NCBI GenBank assembly: GCA_024277935.1 | Contig: JAJRUF010000133.1 | Location: 1 to 64,000, forward strand | Origin: Gammaproteobacteria bacterium | GTDB taxonomy: Bacteria; Pseudomonadota; Gammaproteobacteria; Methylococcales; Methylomonadaceae | Reading direction: 5' to 3' | Length of the DNA: 64,000 bases | Notes under the pieces: model-generated | What the model was told of the DNA's origin: nothing | Databases searched by the model: none | Seen by the model: only the letters and a program-made list of their open reading frames with translations | Position numbers and translations under genes: made by a program | Part shown: piece after piece, positions 937 to 7,179 of the stretch | How the letters are laid out: each line of letters opens with the position of its first letter | Numbering within the stretch: the first letter of the stretch is position 1

Positions 937-1683
937 TTATTGTTTAAAAAAGCTAGAAACTTCTTTCCAAAGAGATTGATAAGCCTCTACTGAACGCGAT
1001 TTTTTTATATACCCCAATAAAGGCATCCGCTCATACCCCATACGCTCAATATCACTAGCATAGGGAATAATACTTGCTAAAATATCAGGGTGCTTTTCGG
1101 CTAATGACTCAATAATATCCCGGTGCATTTTTTTACGTCTATCCGCCATAGAAAAGAAAGGCAATAATTTTATATGTTTTAAATTATTATCTTTAATATA
1201 TTTTTTTAATTGCTCCAAAGTCCTTAAAGATAAGGGGGTTGGAATAATAGGTGACAGTAAAAAATCAGAAGCTTCAAATATTGCTTCTGATAATAATGAG
1301 ATATTAGGTGGGCAATCAAGAACAATAATATCGTATTCTTTAGTTAAAGGAGCCAGTAACTTTTTTAAACGTTGCGTTGGCTTTTTTCGCTCATCCAAAA
1401 CCAAATCCAGATTTCTAAAGGAGAAATCTGCAGGTAATAGATCTAAATTCTCAAAGTCAGTCGCTTTAATTAAACCGTCCAACTCCCTTGCTCCCGCAAT
1501 TAAATCTTTACTCCCTCCTTTAACTTTGGGCTTAATTCTAAAATAATAACTACTTGCTCCTTGAGGGTCTAAATCCCAAACTAAGGTTTTATAATTATTC
1601 TGTGCGGCTAGAAAAGCAATATTAACTGCTGTGGATGTTTTTCCAACTCCACCTTTAATATTATAGGTTGCAATAATTGTCAT
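937..1683 (-). CDS. ParA/MinD-family ATPase
   Basis: Deviant Walker A KGGVGKTSTAVNIA, Walker A' DLDPQG, Walker B IIVLDCPP. Confidence 0.92.
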   Translation of the reverse strand: MTIIATYNIKGGVGKTSTAVNIAFLAAQNNYKTLVWDLDPQGASSYYFRIKPKVKGGSKDLIAGARELDGLIKATDFENLDLLPADFSFRNLDLVLDERKKPTQRLKKLLAPLTKEYDIIVLDCPPNISLLSEAIFEASDFLLSPIIPTPLSLRTLEQLKKYIKDNNLKHIKLLPFFSMADRRKKMHRDIIESLAEKHPDILASIIPYASDIERMGYERMPLLGYIKKSRSVEAYQSLWKEVSSFFKQ

Positions 1684-1694
1684 TAATATTCCCT

Positions 1695-3227
1695 CTAGGC
1701 TTTATTGCTAAATAATTGTTTAAAGAGTCTCATATTCTCTGCATCAGTAAATAATTTAAATTGCTCGGCAAAATGATTCCGTGCATTACACTTCATGGTA
1801 TCGAGGAATTGTACTAAAACACCCATGGCTAACAGCGTATTAGAAGGTGTTTTTTGACACATCATTTCCTGGCTAAATTCTTTAATACTTATTTCTTGAA
1901 CTTCATAATCCTGAAAATCACCTAGTACTGCTTGAAAACCTTTTAACACTTTAATACTTTCCTTAATTTCACTTTGCGGATAAAGACTTTGAAAAAACTC
2001 CATTAAATAGCGTAATTTTTTACAGGTTTTTCTTAAGTCATGCAATGCTATAGCAGGTGATTTATCGCTAATAGCAGAGCCTTCTTTTAATACACGCTGA
2101 TAAACTTTCCAAATCCGAATATCGGCCAACTGTTTAATGGCTTGATTGGTCTGACTAGCCCGTACTTTTTTGGCCGAGGGTTCATTTAAATACTGTTCCC
2201 AAGCAAACAGTTGCTTAATATATTTTGGACTTTTTAAATGTTCTGCCAATTCCTTTTGAGCCTGTTGCTGCTTTTGCTTTAAAAAAGCATAAAAGGGAGT
2301 AAGATCATCACGCAATGTTAAAGGGAGTGCTTGTTGATATTTCTGATAACTTAATAAATAGACATCAAGGTCACGAGTAGGACTGGTAATTTGTCCAAGC
2401 CATGCAAAAAAATCAGCATATTGAGCAACAGTTTCAGCAGGCAAAGTATTTTTAATTTGACTTAGCCCTGCACGCGTCCGTCTAACTGCAACACGAAAAT
2501 CATGCAGAAATTCCGTATCTATATCTTCTATAGTGCCCGCTTCATTAATTTGTATAGCCTGTAACAATTGTTTAAATATCTTTTTTGTTGCTAACTCTGC
2601 TCTCATTTCTGGCTTTAACTGAATAGCCAGTTTAGAGCTATAATCTTTGGGCTTTCTACCTTGTTGCTTTAATGCTTCGCTTATCACAGAGCAAGTTGAC
2701 TGTTTTATAGCGAGTGTATTTTGCAAAATATCTACAATTTTTTTATGTGCTTTCTCATACCCTTTTAATGGAATCAAATGAATACGATTATTTAACAGCT
2801 CATAATTATCTATTTGAAGTCGTAATACGGTTTTTTGATCTTTATTTAAAATATTAATACGAGAAACTTCAACGGGTAGTTGACAAAGAGGGAGTAACGC
2901 TCTCATTTCCAAAACAGTTGCAATAGATTTTTTAAATCGTCCATCAACAAATTGCTGACTAAATTTAGGGACAGATGCGACCTCCTCAACAGCCATTAGA
3001 TGACCACTTTTCCTATCAACCAATGAAAGCTGAGAAAGGTTTTGGGAATGATTGAATTCACAAATCATTCCAGCATTATATAACCGCCAGTCAAAGCTAT
3101 CATAAAATGTTTTTATGCTGTATTCCTGAGTGGTAATTTGCAAGTCGACTTGCTTACCTAACTTGGCAATAAATTTTTTTACTGTCAGATTTGCGGGGAG
3201 TTCGAAATATAACGAGTTTTCTGTCAT
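1695..3227 (-). CDS. CYTH-like/CHAD domain protein
   Basis: C-terminal CHAD signatures FLHDFRVAVRRTRAGL and ALHDLRKTCKKLRYLMEFF; N-terminal degenerate CYTH-like region (YDSFDWRLYNAGM). Confidence 0.88.
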   Translation of the reverse strand: MTENSLYFELPANLTVKKFIAKLGKQVDLQITTQEYSIKTFYDSFDWRLYNAGMICEFNHSQNLSQLSLVDRKSGHLMAVEEVASVPKFSQQFVDGRFKKSIATVLEMRALLPLCQLPVEVSRINILNKDQKTVLRLQIDNYELLNNRIHLIPLKGYEKAHKKIVDILQNTLAIKQSTCSVISEALKQQGRKPKDYSSKLAIQLKPEMRAELATKKIFKQLLQAIQINEAGTIEDIDTEFLHDFRVAVRRTRAGLSQIKNTLPAETVAQYADFFAWLGQITSPTRDLDVYLLSYQKYQQALPLTLRDDLTPFYAFLKQKQQQAQKELAEHLKSPKYIKQLFAWEQYLNEPSAKKVRASQTNQAIKQLADIRIWKVYQRVLKEGSAISDKSPAIALHDLRKTCKKLRYLMEFFQSLYPQSEIKESIKVLKGFQAVLGDFQDYEVQEISIKEFSQEMMCQKTPSNTLLAMGVLVQFLDTMKCNARNHFAEQFKLFTDAENMRLFKQLFSNKA

Positions 3228-3325
3228 TATTGGTTGATAAAGTTACGAGAAATTAATAAATATTAACATGCATAGCCACAAAGGATTATGACAGAAATAT
3301 TGCAGTGTCAACTGAAAAGAAAATA

Positions 3326-3475
3326 TCGGCATCTTTCATTTTAACTCTAAAGTAGCTTACACTTTTTAGTGTGAGAAAATAAGCGCACCAGCTAAACTTC
3401 ATTTGATGCGCCTCCTAACGACCGACGGCACATCCTACAGAAACACCAATACAAAAGTGGAAACTGAAAGATACC
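3326..3475. repeat. MITE-like element copy 2
   Basis: Termini GGCATCTTTCATTTTAAC...TTACACTTTTTAGTGTGA and ACAAAAGTGGAAACTGAAAGATACC; lacks ~30 nt of copy 1. Confidence 0.7.
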
Positions 3476-3584
3476 AAAATATCTTGTTGAAATTATAAAA
3501 TATGATTGAAGGGAGGTTAATGATACTCGGAAGTATTAGGCTGGATTCTGGCTTCAAAGTAGCAAACAATATGTACTCTAACAT

Positions 3585-3615
3585 TTGGAAGTGAGGCTAA
3601 AGCCTCACTTCCAAA
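3585..3615. repeat. Palindromic hairpin, family C
   Basis: TTGGAAGTGAGGCTAAAGCCTCACTTCCAA. Confidence 0.75.
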
Positions 3616-3636
3616 GTTTATTGCTTTAAAAAATTA

Positions 3637-3837
3637 TTAAGCGGCCTTCTTTACTGCCTTTTTTGCAACTTTCTTTGCGGCTTTTTTATTGCTCGCTTTT
3701 TTGCTTATAACTGCTTTTGTTGCTTTCTTTATAACGGCTTTAGCATTTTTCTTAGCAACCACTTTTTTAGCAACTGCTTTTTTTGTCGCTTTCTTTGCAA
3801 TTTTTAGGGCTACCTTTTTCTTAACTACTTTTGACAT
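3637..3837 (-). CDS. Histone H1-like Lys/Ala-repeat protein
   Basis: 66 aa composed almost entirely of K/A/V repeats (KKAVAKKVVAKK...KKVAKKAVKKAA). Confidence 0.75.
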   Translation of the reverse strand: MSKVVKKKVALKIAKKATKKAVAKKVVAKKNAKAVIKKATKAVISKKASNKKAAKKVAKKAVKKAA

Positions 3838-3979: not shown

Positions 3980-4246
3980 ATGAGTTTTATTGAGTTCAAG
4001 AAGCTATTACTTGATGCAGAAATCAGTCTACCCAAGTTTAGTAAATTAATAAAAGTAAGTGATAAAAACTTACAGTCTTATAAGAAAAAGGATGAAGTAC
4101 CCAATACAATAGCTGTCATTGCACGTTGCTTTGCAGAAATGAATAAATTAGAGGTTGATTATCGTTTACTTATTGAAAACCTGGAACTCACTGCAAAAAC
4201 AAAAAAAGGAGCAGGTTTTGCTAATAAAGAGAGTCTAAAAAAGTAA
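3980..4246 (+). CDS. Small protein, possible helix-turn-helix
   Basis: 88-aa ORF divergent from the H1-like gene; XRE-like pattern (LPKFSKLIKVSDKNLQSYKKKDEVPNTIAVIARCF). Confidence 0.55.
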   Translation: MSFIEFKKLLLDAEISLPKFSKLIKVSDKNLQSYKKKDEVPNTIAVIARCFAEMNKLEVDYRLLIENLELTAKTKKGAGFANKESLKK

Positions 4247-4808: not shown

Positions 4809-6542
4809 TTATGCAACCAGCTCTCGTTCAATATAACGTTGCTTTTTCTTGGCTGTTATTTTATCAAGTTCAATCATTACCAAACTATCAATACAGTTAT
4901 TAAAATCAGGATCAATATTAAAGTCTATAAAATGACAGCCTTTATCAACACATAACTCAACATATTGTTTGTACAAGGTCGGTACTTTTACACCCAATTT
5001 TTTTAATTCACTATTTAAAATTTTAAAACTGGTTTTATAATCTTCATTAAACTCTGCTTCAGCAAACTTCTGCGCTTGTTCAGAAATTATAAAGGGCATT
5101 TTTGCAACAGCAAGGTTTAAATCGGAACCAAACTGCTGTTTATAAAAGCTGATAATCACTTCTTTTGCTTTTTGAGGGTAAGCATTAGTCATACTGACCG
5201 GGCCAAATAAATATTTAATATCAGGCTGTTCTCTCAAGTAAGCCCCAATACCATACCAAAGATAATCAAGACTCCGTTTACCCCAATAACGAGGTTGCAC
5301 AAAACTACGACCTAATTCAATACTATTAGGTAAATAGCTTTGAAACTCTGCATTCAAATTAAACAGTGTATGTGTATAAAACCCTTCTACGCCTTTACTC
5401 TGCATAATTTTATGTCCTTCACCTATCCGGTAAGAACCAACAATTTCAAGATCATACTCATCCCATAACACTAAATGACTATAATAAACATCATATTTAT
5501 CTAAGTCATAAGCTTCACCCGTACCCTCTTCAACGGTACGAAAGGTTAGTTCTCGTAAACGTGCAATTTCTTGCATTACTGGGCAGTCATCTTGATATTT
5601 ATATAAAAATATCTTCTTGCCATCTCTGGTTTCTCCTAGCAAACGCGAGAGGTATAAGGCTTTTTTTATGGCTTTACTGTCAACAGGGTGTGCAACAGTT
5701 TCAATCGTTTCAAATAAAGGCTTTTTAGCTTTTTTACCTAGGTTTTGTACATGACGGCGAAATTTTTGAGTTAACTGCTTATTGTCTTCCTTTGTATTTT
5801 TTATTGCTTGATAAGGAATGGGGGAACCGACTCTAAATTTAAGCTCCTGATCCTTTTTATTAAACATTTCAGACACTAACATAACTGTCCCTAATGGTTT
5901 ATATAGCGAGGATAAGAGGTAAAATAAAGTAGAATTAGAGGCTTTGATATAAATGGGTAAAATAGGACATTGTGCTTTTTTAGCTAACTTAACAAACCCG
6001 GTTTTCCACTTGCCATCACGAACACCTTTAGGTGTAATGCGCGAGACTTCTCCTGCTGGAAAAATAATCACAGCCTCCTCGCTCTCTAAAGCAGCTAACA
6101 TCGCTTTGTAAGCTTTTTTATGGTTGGCATTTTGAGATAAAATATCAACAGGTAAAAAAACTGACTCTAAAGGTTTCATATAAGAGAGTACCTTATTGGC
6201 CACAATACGCACATCTGGCCTAACAGAGCGAATAAGTTTTACTAGTGCTAACCCATCCAAGGTACCAATGGGGTGGTTCGCCACTATTAATAAGCGACCT
6301 TCTGATGGGATATTAGAGTATGATTTTGGTGATATTTGATAACTAAATTGAAAATAATTAAGTAATTTATCTAAAAAAGCAAACCCTCGTAGGTGCTGAT
6401 TCTTAAGAAGAACGCTATTAAAATCTTCTTCATGTAATACTTTTTTGATTATCTTTAATAGTAATTTATTATTTTTGCCGATTTTTAATTTCGGGTATGT
6501 TTCTCGAACTATTTTTTCAGCATTTATCATATAAGCATTCAC
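4809..6542 (-). CDS. Bifunctional acyltransferase: N-terminal PlsC-like domain plus C-terminal OlsB/GNAT-like domain (OlsF-like)
   Basis: PlsC-like VANHPIGTLDGLAL and FPAGEVSR; C-terminal LRELTFRTVEEGTGEAYDLDKYD and ELGRSFVQPRYWGKRSLDYLWYGIGAYL typical of hemolysin/OlsB acyltransferases. Confidence 0.82.
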   Translation of the reverse strand: MNAYMINAEKIVRETYPKLKIGKNNKLLLKIIKKVLHEEDFNSVLLKNQHLRGFAFLDKLLNYFQFSYQISPKSYSNIPSEGRLLIVANHPIGTLDGLALVKLIRSVRPDVRIVANKVLSYMKPLESVFLPVDILSQNANHKKAYKAMLAALESEEAVIIFPAGEVSRITPKGVRDGKWKTGFVKLAKKAQCPILPIYIKASNSTLFYLLSSLYKPLGTVMLVSEMFNKKDQELKFRVGSPIPYQAIKNTKEDNKQLTQKFRRHVQNLGKKAKKPLFETIETVAHPVDSKAIKKALYLSRLLGETRDGKKIFLYKYQDDCPVMQEIARLRELTFRTVEEGTGEAYDLDKYDVYYSHLVLWDEYDLEIVGSYRIGEGHKIMQSKGVEGFYTHTLFNLNAEFQSYLPNSIELGRSFVQPRYWGKRSLDYLWYGIGAYLREQPDIKYLFGPVSMTNAYPQKAKEVIISFYKQQFGSDLNLAVAKMPFIISEQAQKFAEAEFNEDYKTSFKILNSELKKLGVKVPTLYKQYVELCVDKGCHFIDFNIDPDFNNCIDSLVMIELDKITAKKKQRYIERELVA

Positions 6543-6633: not shown

Positions 6634-6798
6634 TAGGAGGCTGTCCGAGAATAGAAACCGTCGCGAGGGAAAGCCCTTTTGAGTCAGTTTTTTCGTTCAT
6701 TTGAGGCGAATAGTTGTGCTATTTAACGAAAATGAACGGGAAAAGTGGCCAAAAGGGATTTTTCCGTAGCAGGTTCTCTATTCTCGGACAGCCTCCTA
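6634..6798. mobile_element. MITE-like palindromic element
   Basis: Terminal inverted repeats GGAGGCTGTCCGAGAATAGA...TCTATTCTCGGACAGCCTCC; nested inverted repeats (CCCTTTTG/CAAAAGGG, GTTCATTT/AAATGAAC); flanking TA suggests a TA/CTAR-type target duplication. Confidence 0.7.
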
Positions 6799-7002
6799 AT
6801 CATACCCAGCCATATTATGTATTTTTTCTTTCGTTTTACGAGGCCGAACAGGTGTGTGCTCAGTAAAATAATAATCCTCTAACTCATCAAGCCCTCTTTC
6901 AATCAATTCTTGAATAAAAAAATCTTTAGATTTTCCCACCTCAGAAGCCAAAAAATTAAGTCTATGTTCTGTTTCTGTCGTTAATTTTATTGAAGTTTCC
7001 AT
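6796..7002 (-). CDS. Ribbon-helix-helix/RelB-like antitoxin-type protein
   Basis: METSIKLTTETEHRLNFLASEVGKSKDFFIQELIERGLDELEDYY; start set at the internal Met. Confidence 0.6.
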   Translation of the reverse strand: METSIKLTTETEHRLNFLASEVGKSKDFFIQELIERGLDELEDYYFTEHTPVRPRKTKEKIHNMAGYD

Positions 7003-7179
7003 TTTGCAAATCAATTTATAAATCATATAAATTCGCTACTTTAATGGCATAAAGTTACAGCTTTATGACAAGCACTACTGTTTCACACTTACCCGAATTG
7101 TCATCAATTATTCATCTAATCGTTACCACAATGTCATAAAAAATTGTTATTTTCCTATTTAACCAAAGTGGAGGGCAAT

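Follow-up and report, generated by a model that had tools for sequence, protein, structure and literature searches.

What does a ParA-family ATPase do when its gene lies beside that of a CHAD-domain protein and no ParB gene is close by? This question is raised by a locus near the start of the window, by which we mean the whole 64,000-nucleotide stretch of Methylomonadaceae DNA that was analysed (contig JAJRUF010000133.1). An earlier note on this DNA had called three genes here, parA, a CHAD gene and an H1-like Lys/Ala (K/A) gene, all on one strand, and our annotation, in which this is the minus strand, agrees with it. The features of the locus are as follows.

937 to 1683, minus strand: parA, encoding a Soj-like ParA-family ATPase of 248 aa (Pfam AAA_31, 1e-35), with the signature lysine K10, P-loop K15/T16, Walker A' D37/D39, Walker B D123 and the candidate partner-tracking residue R49
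1695 to 3227, minus strand: the CHAD gene, encoding 510 aa with a degenerate TTM/CYTH domain and a CHAD domain, the proposed adaptor for polyphosphate (polyP) granules
2658 to 3227, minus strand: the N-terminal domain of the CHAD protein (residues 1-190), with a predicted TTM/CYTH fold and no ExExK motif
1698 to 2615, minus strand: the CHAD domain (residues 205-510), with the conserved polyP-contact positions H242, R245, R249, R285, R406 and Y407
3357 to 3475, no strand assigned: a MITE-like dispersed repeat between the K/A gene and the CHAD gene, with a second copy at 1-145
3584 to 3615, no strand assigned: a terminator-like 14-bp hairpin between the K/A and CHAD genes, called on the plus strand
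3637 to 3837, minus strand: the H1-like K/A gene, encoding 66 aa and syntenic in some Methylococcales only

The CHAD gene lies upstream of parA across a gap of 11 nt, and the K/A gene lies upstream of the CHAD gene across a gap of 409 nt. The stem of the intervening hairpin is a nearly perfect palindrome, so that it could act on the minus strand as well. As the earlier note had stated, neither a ParB nor a replication gene was found beside parA, CHAD or K/A among the neighbours in the window. In the source genome CHAD occurs once and ParA has three matches, of which the two outside this locus are 31-32% identical. The closest named relatives of the parA-CHAD pair belong to Methyloprofundus, Methylomonas and other Methylococcales. 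Also near the operon are genes for a bifunctional ornithine lipid synthase, OlsF (4809-6542, minus strand), and a RelB-type antitoxin (6796-7026, minus strand). The MITE-like repeat has the ends ACACTTTT/AAAAGTGT, and its 30-base core occurs in 22 genomic copies at no more than two mismatches, compared with 0 for the reversed control.

The earlier note had proposed counting parA-CHAD adjacency across genomes, and the counts proved to be far above chance. A scan of named genomes with the window ParA gave 59 loci. These came from Methylococcales and from many Chlorobiaceae/Chlorobiales, together with one Opitutae and two MAGs that carry the labels Streptosporangiaceae and Anaerolineaceae, for which mis-binning is possible. 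In 53 of the 59 loci a CHAD gene lies immediately upstream of parA in the same orientation; the six exceptions are L063, where the contig ends, and three Methylococcales and two Chlorobium loci. Chlorobi were sampled through these named loci only (32 loci). For the Gammaproteobacteria, we drew 321 genomes, for the most part one or two from each family. A member of the ParA clade was present in 51 of them, and 49 loci were examined. The automatic rule placed CHAD directly upstream in 33/49 loci, and the addition after inspection of three short CHADs beside ParA (L151, L154 and L163), which the long-CHAD profile passes over, raised this to 36/49, with Pfam confirming the short CHAD in L154 and L163. 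The remaining thirteen loci without CHAD have lower-scoring ParAs, of about 300 bits or less. In a phylum-wide draw CHAD adjoined parA in just 4 of 44 loci. The commonest spacing was a 4-nt overlap (-4, of the ATGA type), which is the usual sign of translational coupling; 50 of the 86 loci that the automatic rule counted as adjacent have it. Gammaproteobacteria and Chlorobiota share the parA-CHAD pair as a conserved operon, and single matches occur elsewhere. The ParA clade is not exclusive to CHAD, since its lower-scoring members, including nearly all of the non-gammaproteobacterial ones in the phylum-wide draw, have no adjacent CHAD gene.

Within the order itself, we sampled 121 genomes and defined a tight ParA clade by at least 58% identity, the next-best ParAs being at about 32%. 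Of the 121 genomes, 32 have this clade, 33 have a full-length CHAD homologue and 30 have both; the two genes were adjacent in 16 of these 30 and apart in 14. Where the genes are apart, CHAD in most of the sampled Methylococcales adjoins pstS/pst permease genes, and often sixA. Several other neighbourhoods recurred among the loci. A parA with CHAD elsewhere (L055, L257, L259, L180, L172 and others) often adjoins a gene for an MgtE Mg2+ transporter (9 loci), and glycogen phosphorylase is a neighbour in 7 such loci. Phylum-draw loci including L219, L229 and L234 hold an orphan ParA sub-clade that has no adjacent CHAD and is often near a TruA-like or RnfH-like gene. In 16 Chlorobi loci, including L057, L069 and L080, the gene immediately upstream of CHAD codes for a repeat-rich protein of about 260-390 aa that is leucine-repeat-like.

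The two genes also occur together at the level of whole genomes. Among the 321 Gammaproteobacteria, the ParA clade was found in 33 of 37 genomes with a long CHAD versus 18 of 284 without (Fisher 1.3e-27), and in 37/74 versus 14/247 genomes when any CHAD match was accepted (p 7e-17). Collapsed to families, which corrects partially rather than fully for phylogeny, the figures were 22/25 versus 13/148 (p=6.9e-16; 173 families in total, counted from printed codes). Chance adjacency of parA and CHAD is excluded by the linkage counts together with these co-occurrence statistics. The polyphosphate kinase gene, ppk, was near parA in 8 of the 49 gammaproteobacterial loci, two of which share one family, versus 0.19 expected if one ppk per genome is assumed. 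The corresponding figure for Chlorobi was 13/32 loci versus 0.14 expected, which is not independent evidence because of the close relationship among these loci. According to Pfam, recurrent neighbours include polyphosphate kinase, PhoU, alkaline phosphatase, a PstS-type binding protein, a binding-protein-dependent permease, a histidine phosphatase of the SixA kind and a histidine kinase; the names PstS, PstC, PstA and SixA are our reading of the Pfam matches. The parA-CHAD operon is linked to polyP biology. In one further locus (L156:4671-7689), a clade ParA is encoded 8 bp downstream of polyphosphate kinase in a genome that has no CHAD match. In keeping with the phosphate context, folD, ppk, parA and CHAD have been described in Acidithiobacillus as a conserved group, in which the ParA was termed a plasmid-partition protein (PMC10892726, 2024).

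The CHAD protein is predicted with high confidence by AlphaFold (mean pLDDT 94.1, pTM 0.90), and its Pfam CHAD match covers residues 217-445 of 510 (1.8e-55). In Foldseek searches, the C-terminal part of the model matches CtCHAD (6qv7/6qva; TM-score 0.93), 6qva being the polyP-bound crystal. Binding of CtCHAD to polyP has been measured, with contacts through H253, R256, R260, R296 and R418/Y419 (Lorenzo-Orts et al., PMC6537752). These contacts correspond to the six positions of the window protein listed above, all of which are invariant among 20 homologues. In L059 (Chlorobiales), a protein whose identity to CtCHAD in the crystallised part is 97-98%, as judged from the printed alignment, is encoded 2 nt upstream of parA. 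We propose that the window CHAD protein is a polyP-granule adaptor, its binding being extrapolated from CtCHAD. The N-terminal part matches TTM/CYTH enzymes in Foldseek, namely SaTTM (TM-score 0.69, E about 2e-5) and also ygiF (5a60). The suggestion in the earlier note that this half lacks an obvious ExExK motif and may be non-catalytic gains support. The TTM/CYTH domain is probably a dead enzyme, because ExExK is absent from the first 60 residues in 37/37 homologues and Pfam CYTH has no match in the window protein or in ten tested relatives. No NCBIfam model matches the TTM-CHAD family. A short basic ATPase-stimulating peptide, as found in ParB-type partners, is not obvious at the N-terminus of the CHAD protein.

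Across 100 ParA homologues, the ATPase residues K10, K15, T16, D37, D39 and D123 are retained almost without exception. The ParA model (pLDDT 83.1) has its best structural matches in Soj/ParA, with McdA and BcsQ also among the matches. At residue 49, just past Walker A', arginine was found in 49 of 51 CHAD-adjacent ParAs versus 10 of 49 others, and five of those ten are Methylococcales with CHAD elsewhere in the genome; positions 158 and 178 shift between the two groups as well, in a comparison that takes no account of tree structure. A quick tree, whose labels come from an earlier and lower adjacency count, puts many of the non-CHAD ParAs in clades of their own, and R49 may therefore partly reflect descent. 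We regard R49 as a candidate partner-tracking residue, a lead for mutagenesis rather than proof of an interface. The arginines with which Soj binds DNA are not clearly retained in the clade. A basic stretch at ParA 182-188 (RRKKMHR) is conserved in part, but as a hint of DNA binding it is only suggestive.

The K/A gene was examined in the same loci. Its product has no Pfam match and its composition is indeed of the K/A kind. Twelve homologues retain both length and start, and their differences fall mostly at the third codon position (0.458 versus 0.213 and 0.153), so by its pattern of change K/A is a genuine gene. Among the named Methylococcales loci, 11 of 24 have it no farther than 4 kb from ParA; the 32 Chlorobi, 49 gammaproteobacterial-draw and 44 phylum-draw loci have none at this distance (0/125). 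The earlier note had counted K/A as part of its candidate module; we have left it out of the core because of these 125 other loci and because the hairpin and the MITE-like repeat separate it from CHAD in the window. A small gene divergent from K/A (3980-4246, plus strand) is conserved with it in 12 Methylococcales loci and has no significant family match.

Based on these analyses, we think it rather probable that parA and CHAD make up a system that uses the nucleoid to position polyP granules. The observations in its favour are the operon, the co-occurrence, the polyP gene context, the conserved polyP-binding residues and the intact ATPase motifs, from which we infer granule positioning by ParA-CHAD as well as ParA-CHAD binding, DNA binding and ATPase stimulation. 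In the mechanism we propose, the CHAD domain would bind polyP at the granule surface and thereby coat the granule, and the dead TTM domain would present the granule to the ParA ATPase and stimulate it. ATP-bound ParA dimers would bind the nucleoid non-specifically and be released where the granule is, and the resulting ATP-driven diffusion ratchet would space the granules and share them out, like McdAB and ParABS. The earlier note had put forward a CHAD adaptor, a ParA ATPase and an H1-like DNA bridge; the core pair of that proposal draws good support from linkage across phyla, co-occurrence, ppk/pho context and the conserved contact residues, while the H1-like third part is not supported as a member of a conserved module. 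Against positioning we count the fact that in about half of the sampled Methylococcales with both genes these genes lie apart. On the same side we place the clade members that have no adjacent CHAD, the Soj-type arginines that are not clearly retained in ParA, and the N-terminus of the CHAD protein, at which no basic stimulating peptide is obvious.

Other readings of the same data must be weighed. ParA and CHAD could instead form a polyP-linked switch that acts on granule nucleation, granule size or PPK/Pho activity rather than on position, with ParA as a nucleotide-dependent regulator resembling BcsQ, which acts as a regulator for cellulose secretion. The synthesis and signalling genes among the neighbours (ppk, phoU, sensor kinase and pst) would fit such a role, as would L156, where ParA follows ppk at 8 bp and CHAD is not nearby, and the ParA model matches BcsQ too. 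However, the operon partners across phyla are CHAD proteins rather than a kinase, and the best structural matches of ParA are Soj/ParA, so we hold a switch to be unlikely, if still worth serious attention. A passive tether, in which CHAD anchors polyP to nucleoid-bound ParA with no dynamic positioning, would resemble anchors such as AlgP or PhaM, and DNA-binding AlgP does space Pseudomonas aeruginosa granules without a known ATPase (PMC9239181; PMC13052382). Retention of all six ATPase residues in essentially every homologue speaks against a mere anchor, and we consider this explanation quite improbable.

It is more doubtful still that the locus encodes a three-part module with the H1-like K/A protein as a DNA bridge. 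K/A does lie near the operon in nearly half of the named Methylococcales loci, and its pattern of change is that of a coding gene, but it was not found near the operon in any of the other three sets of loci, and in the window a hairpin and a repeat stand between it and CHAD. The possibility to which we give least credence is that ParA serves to partition a plasmid or the chromosome and adjoins CHAD by accident, as the 2024 Acidithiobacillus paper assumed. Its family membership and the name given in that paper (PMC10892726) agree with such a function; nevertheless, no ParB is nearby, two other ParA matches are present in its own genome, and the linkage to CHAD holds across phyla.

The proposed positioning system resembles McdAB in that the gene of a ParA/MinD ATPase is paired with that of a cargo binder without ParB, and McdA is among the matches of the ParA model. 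The cargo binder here is a TTM-CHAD polyP protein and not McdB, however, and in both fold and sequence this ParA is nearer to Soj than to McdA. ParABS differs in its adjacent parB, which is lacking among the window neighbours. The CHAD proteins or phosins (CtCHAD, the Ralstonia eutropha CHAD proteins and PptA) have the same CHAD fold and polyP-contact residues, whereas in the present system CHAD is joined to a degenerate TTM domain and shares its operon with a dedicated ParA; the literature searched yielded no ATPase partner for phosins. Escherichia coli ygiF has the same domain order and folds (5a60) and is an active tripolyphosphatase (PMC6537752), unlike the window TTM-CHAD family, which has no ExExK and is paired with ParA. 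AlgP, the H1-like protein of Pseudomonas, shares the proposed outcome, namely even spacing of granules on the nucleoid, but is a single DNA-binding protein that has no known ATPase and is unrelated to ParA and CHAD. The folD-ppk-parA-CHAD cluster of Acidithiobacillus, matched by its described gene context, very probably contains the same parA-CHAD pair beside ppk; the paper gives it only as the gene context of a single genus, takes parA for a plasmid-partition gene and proposes no positioning role (PMC10892726).

In a 2025 review, AlgP is the sole known factor for polyP-granule placement, the proteins that place granules in Caulobacter are not identified and the need for energy remains to be seen (PMC13052382). 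A ParA proposed for polyP granules was not found in the full-text literature searched, a scope outside which preprints and most subscription papers fall, so that earlier proposals are possible. The parA-CHAD unit is a strong candidate for an energy-driven granule positioner, because in many unrelated bacteria it pairs a polyP binder with the type of ATPase that distributes cargo along the chromosome. We lean, if only slightly, towards the wider reading that this is a widespread ATP-driven system for the positioning and inheritance of polyP granules in several phyla, with a pseudoenzyme-CHAD adaptor, a dedicated ParA clade and a new ParA cargo. Overall, the operon points to one particular ATPase and adaptor, offers a residue that may track the partner, and occurs in many organisms in which the proposal can be studied. 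If the proposal is true, an orphan ParA clade would gain a function, and the polyP-bound structure of CtCHAD would serve as its cargo end.
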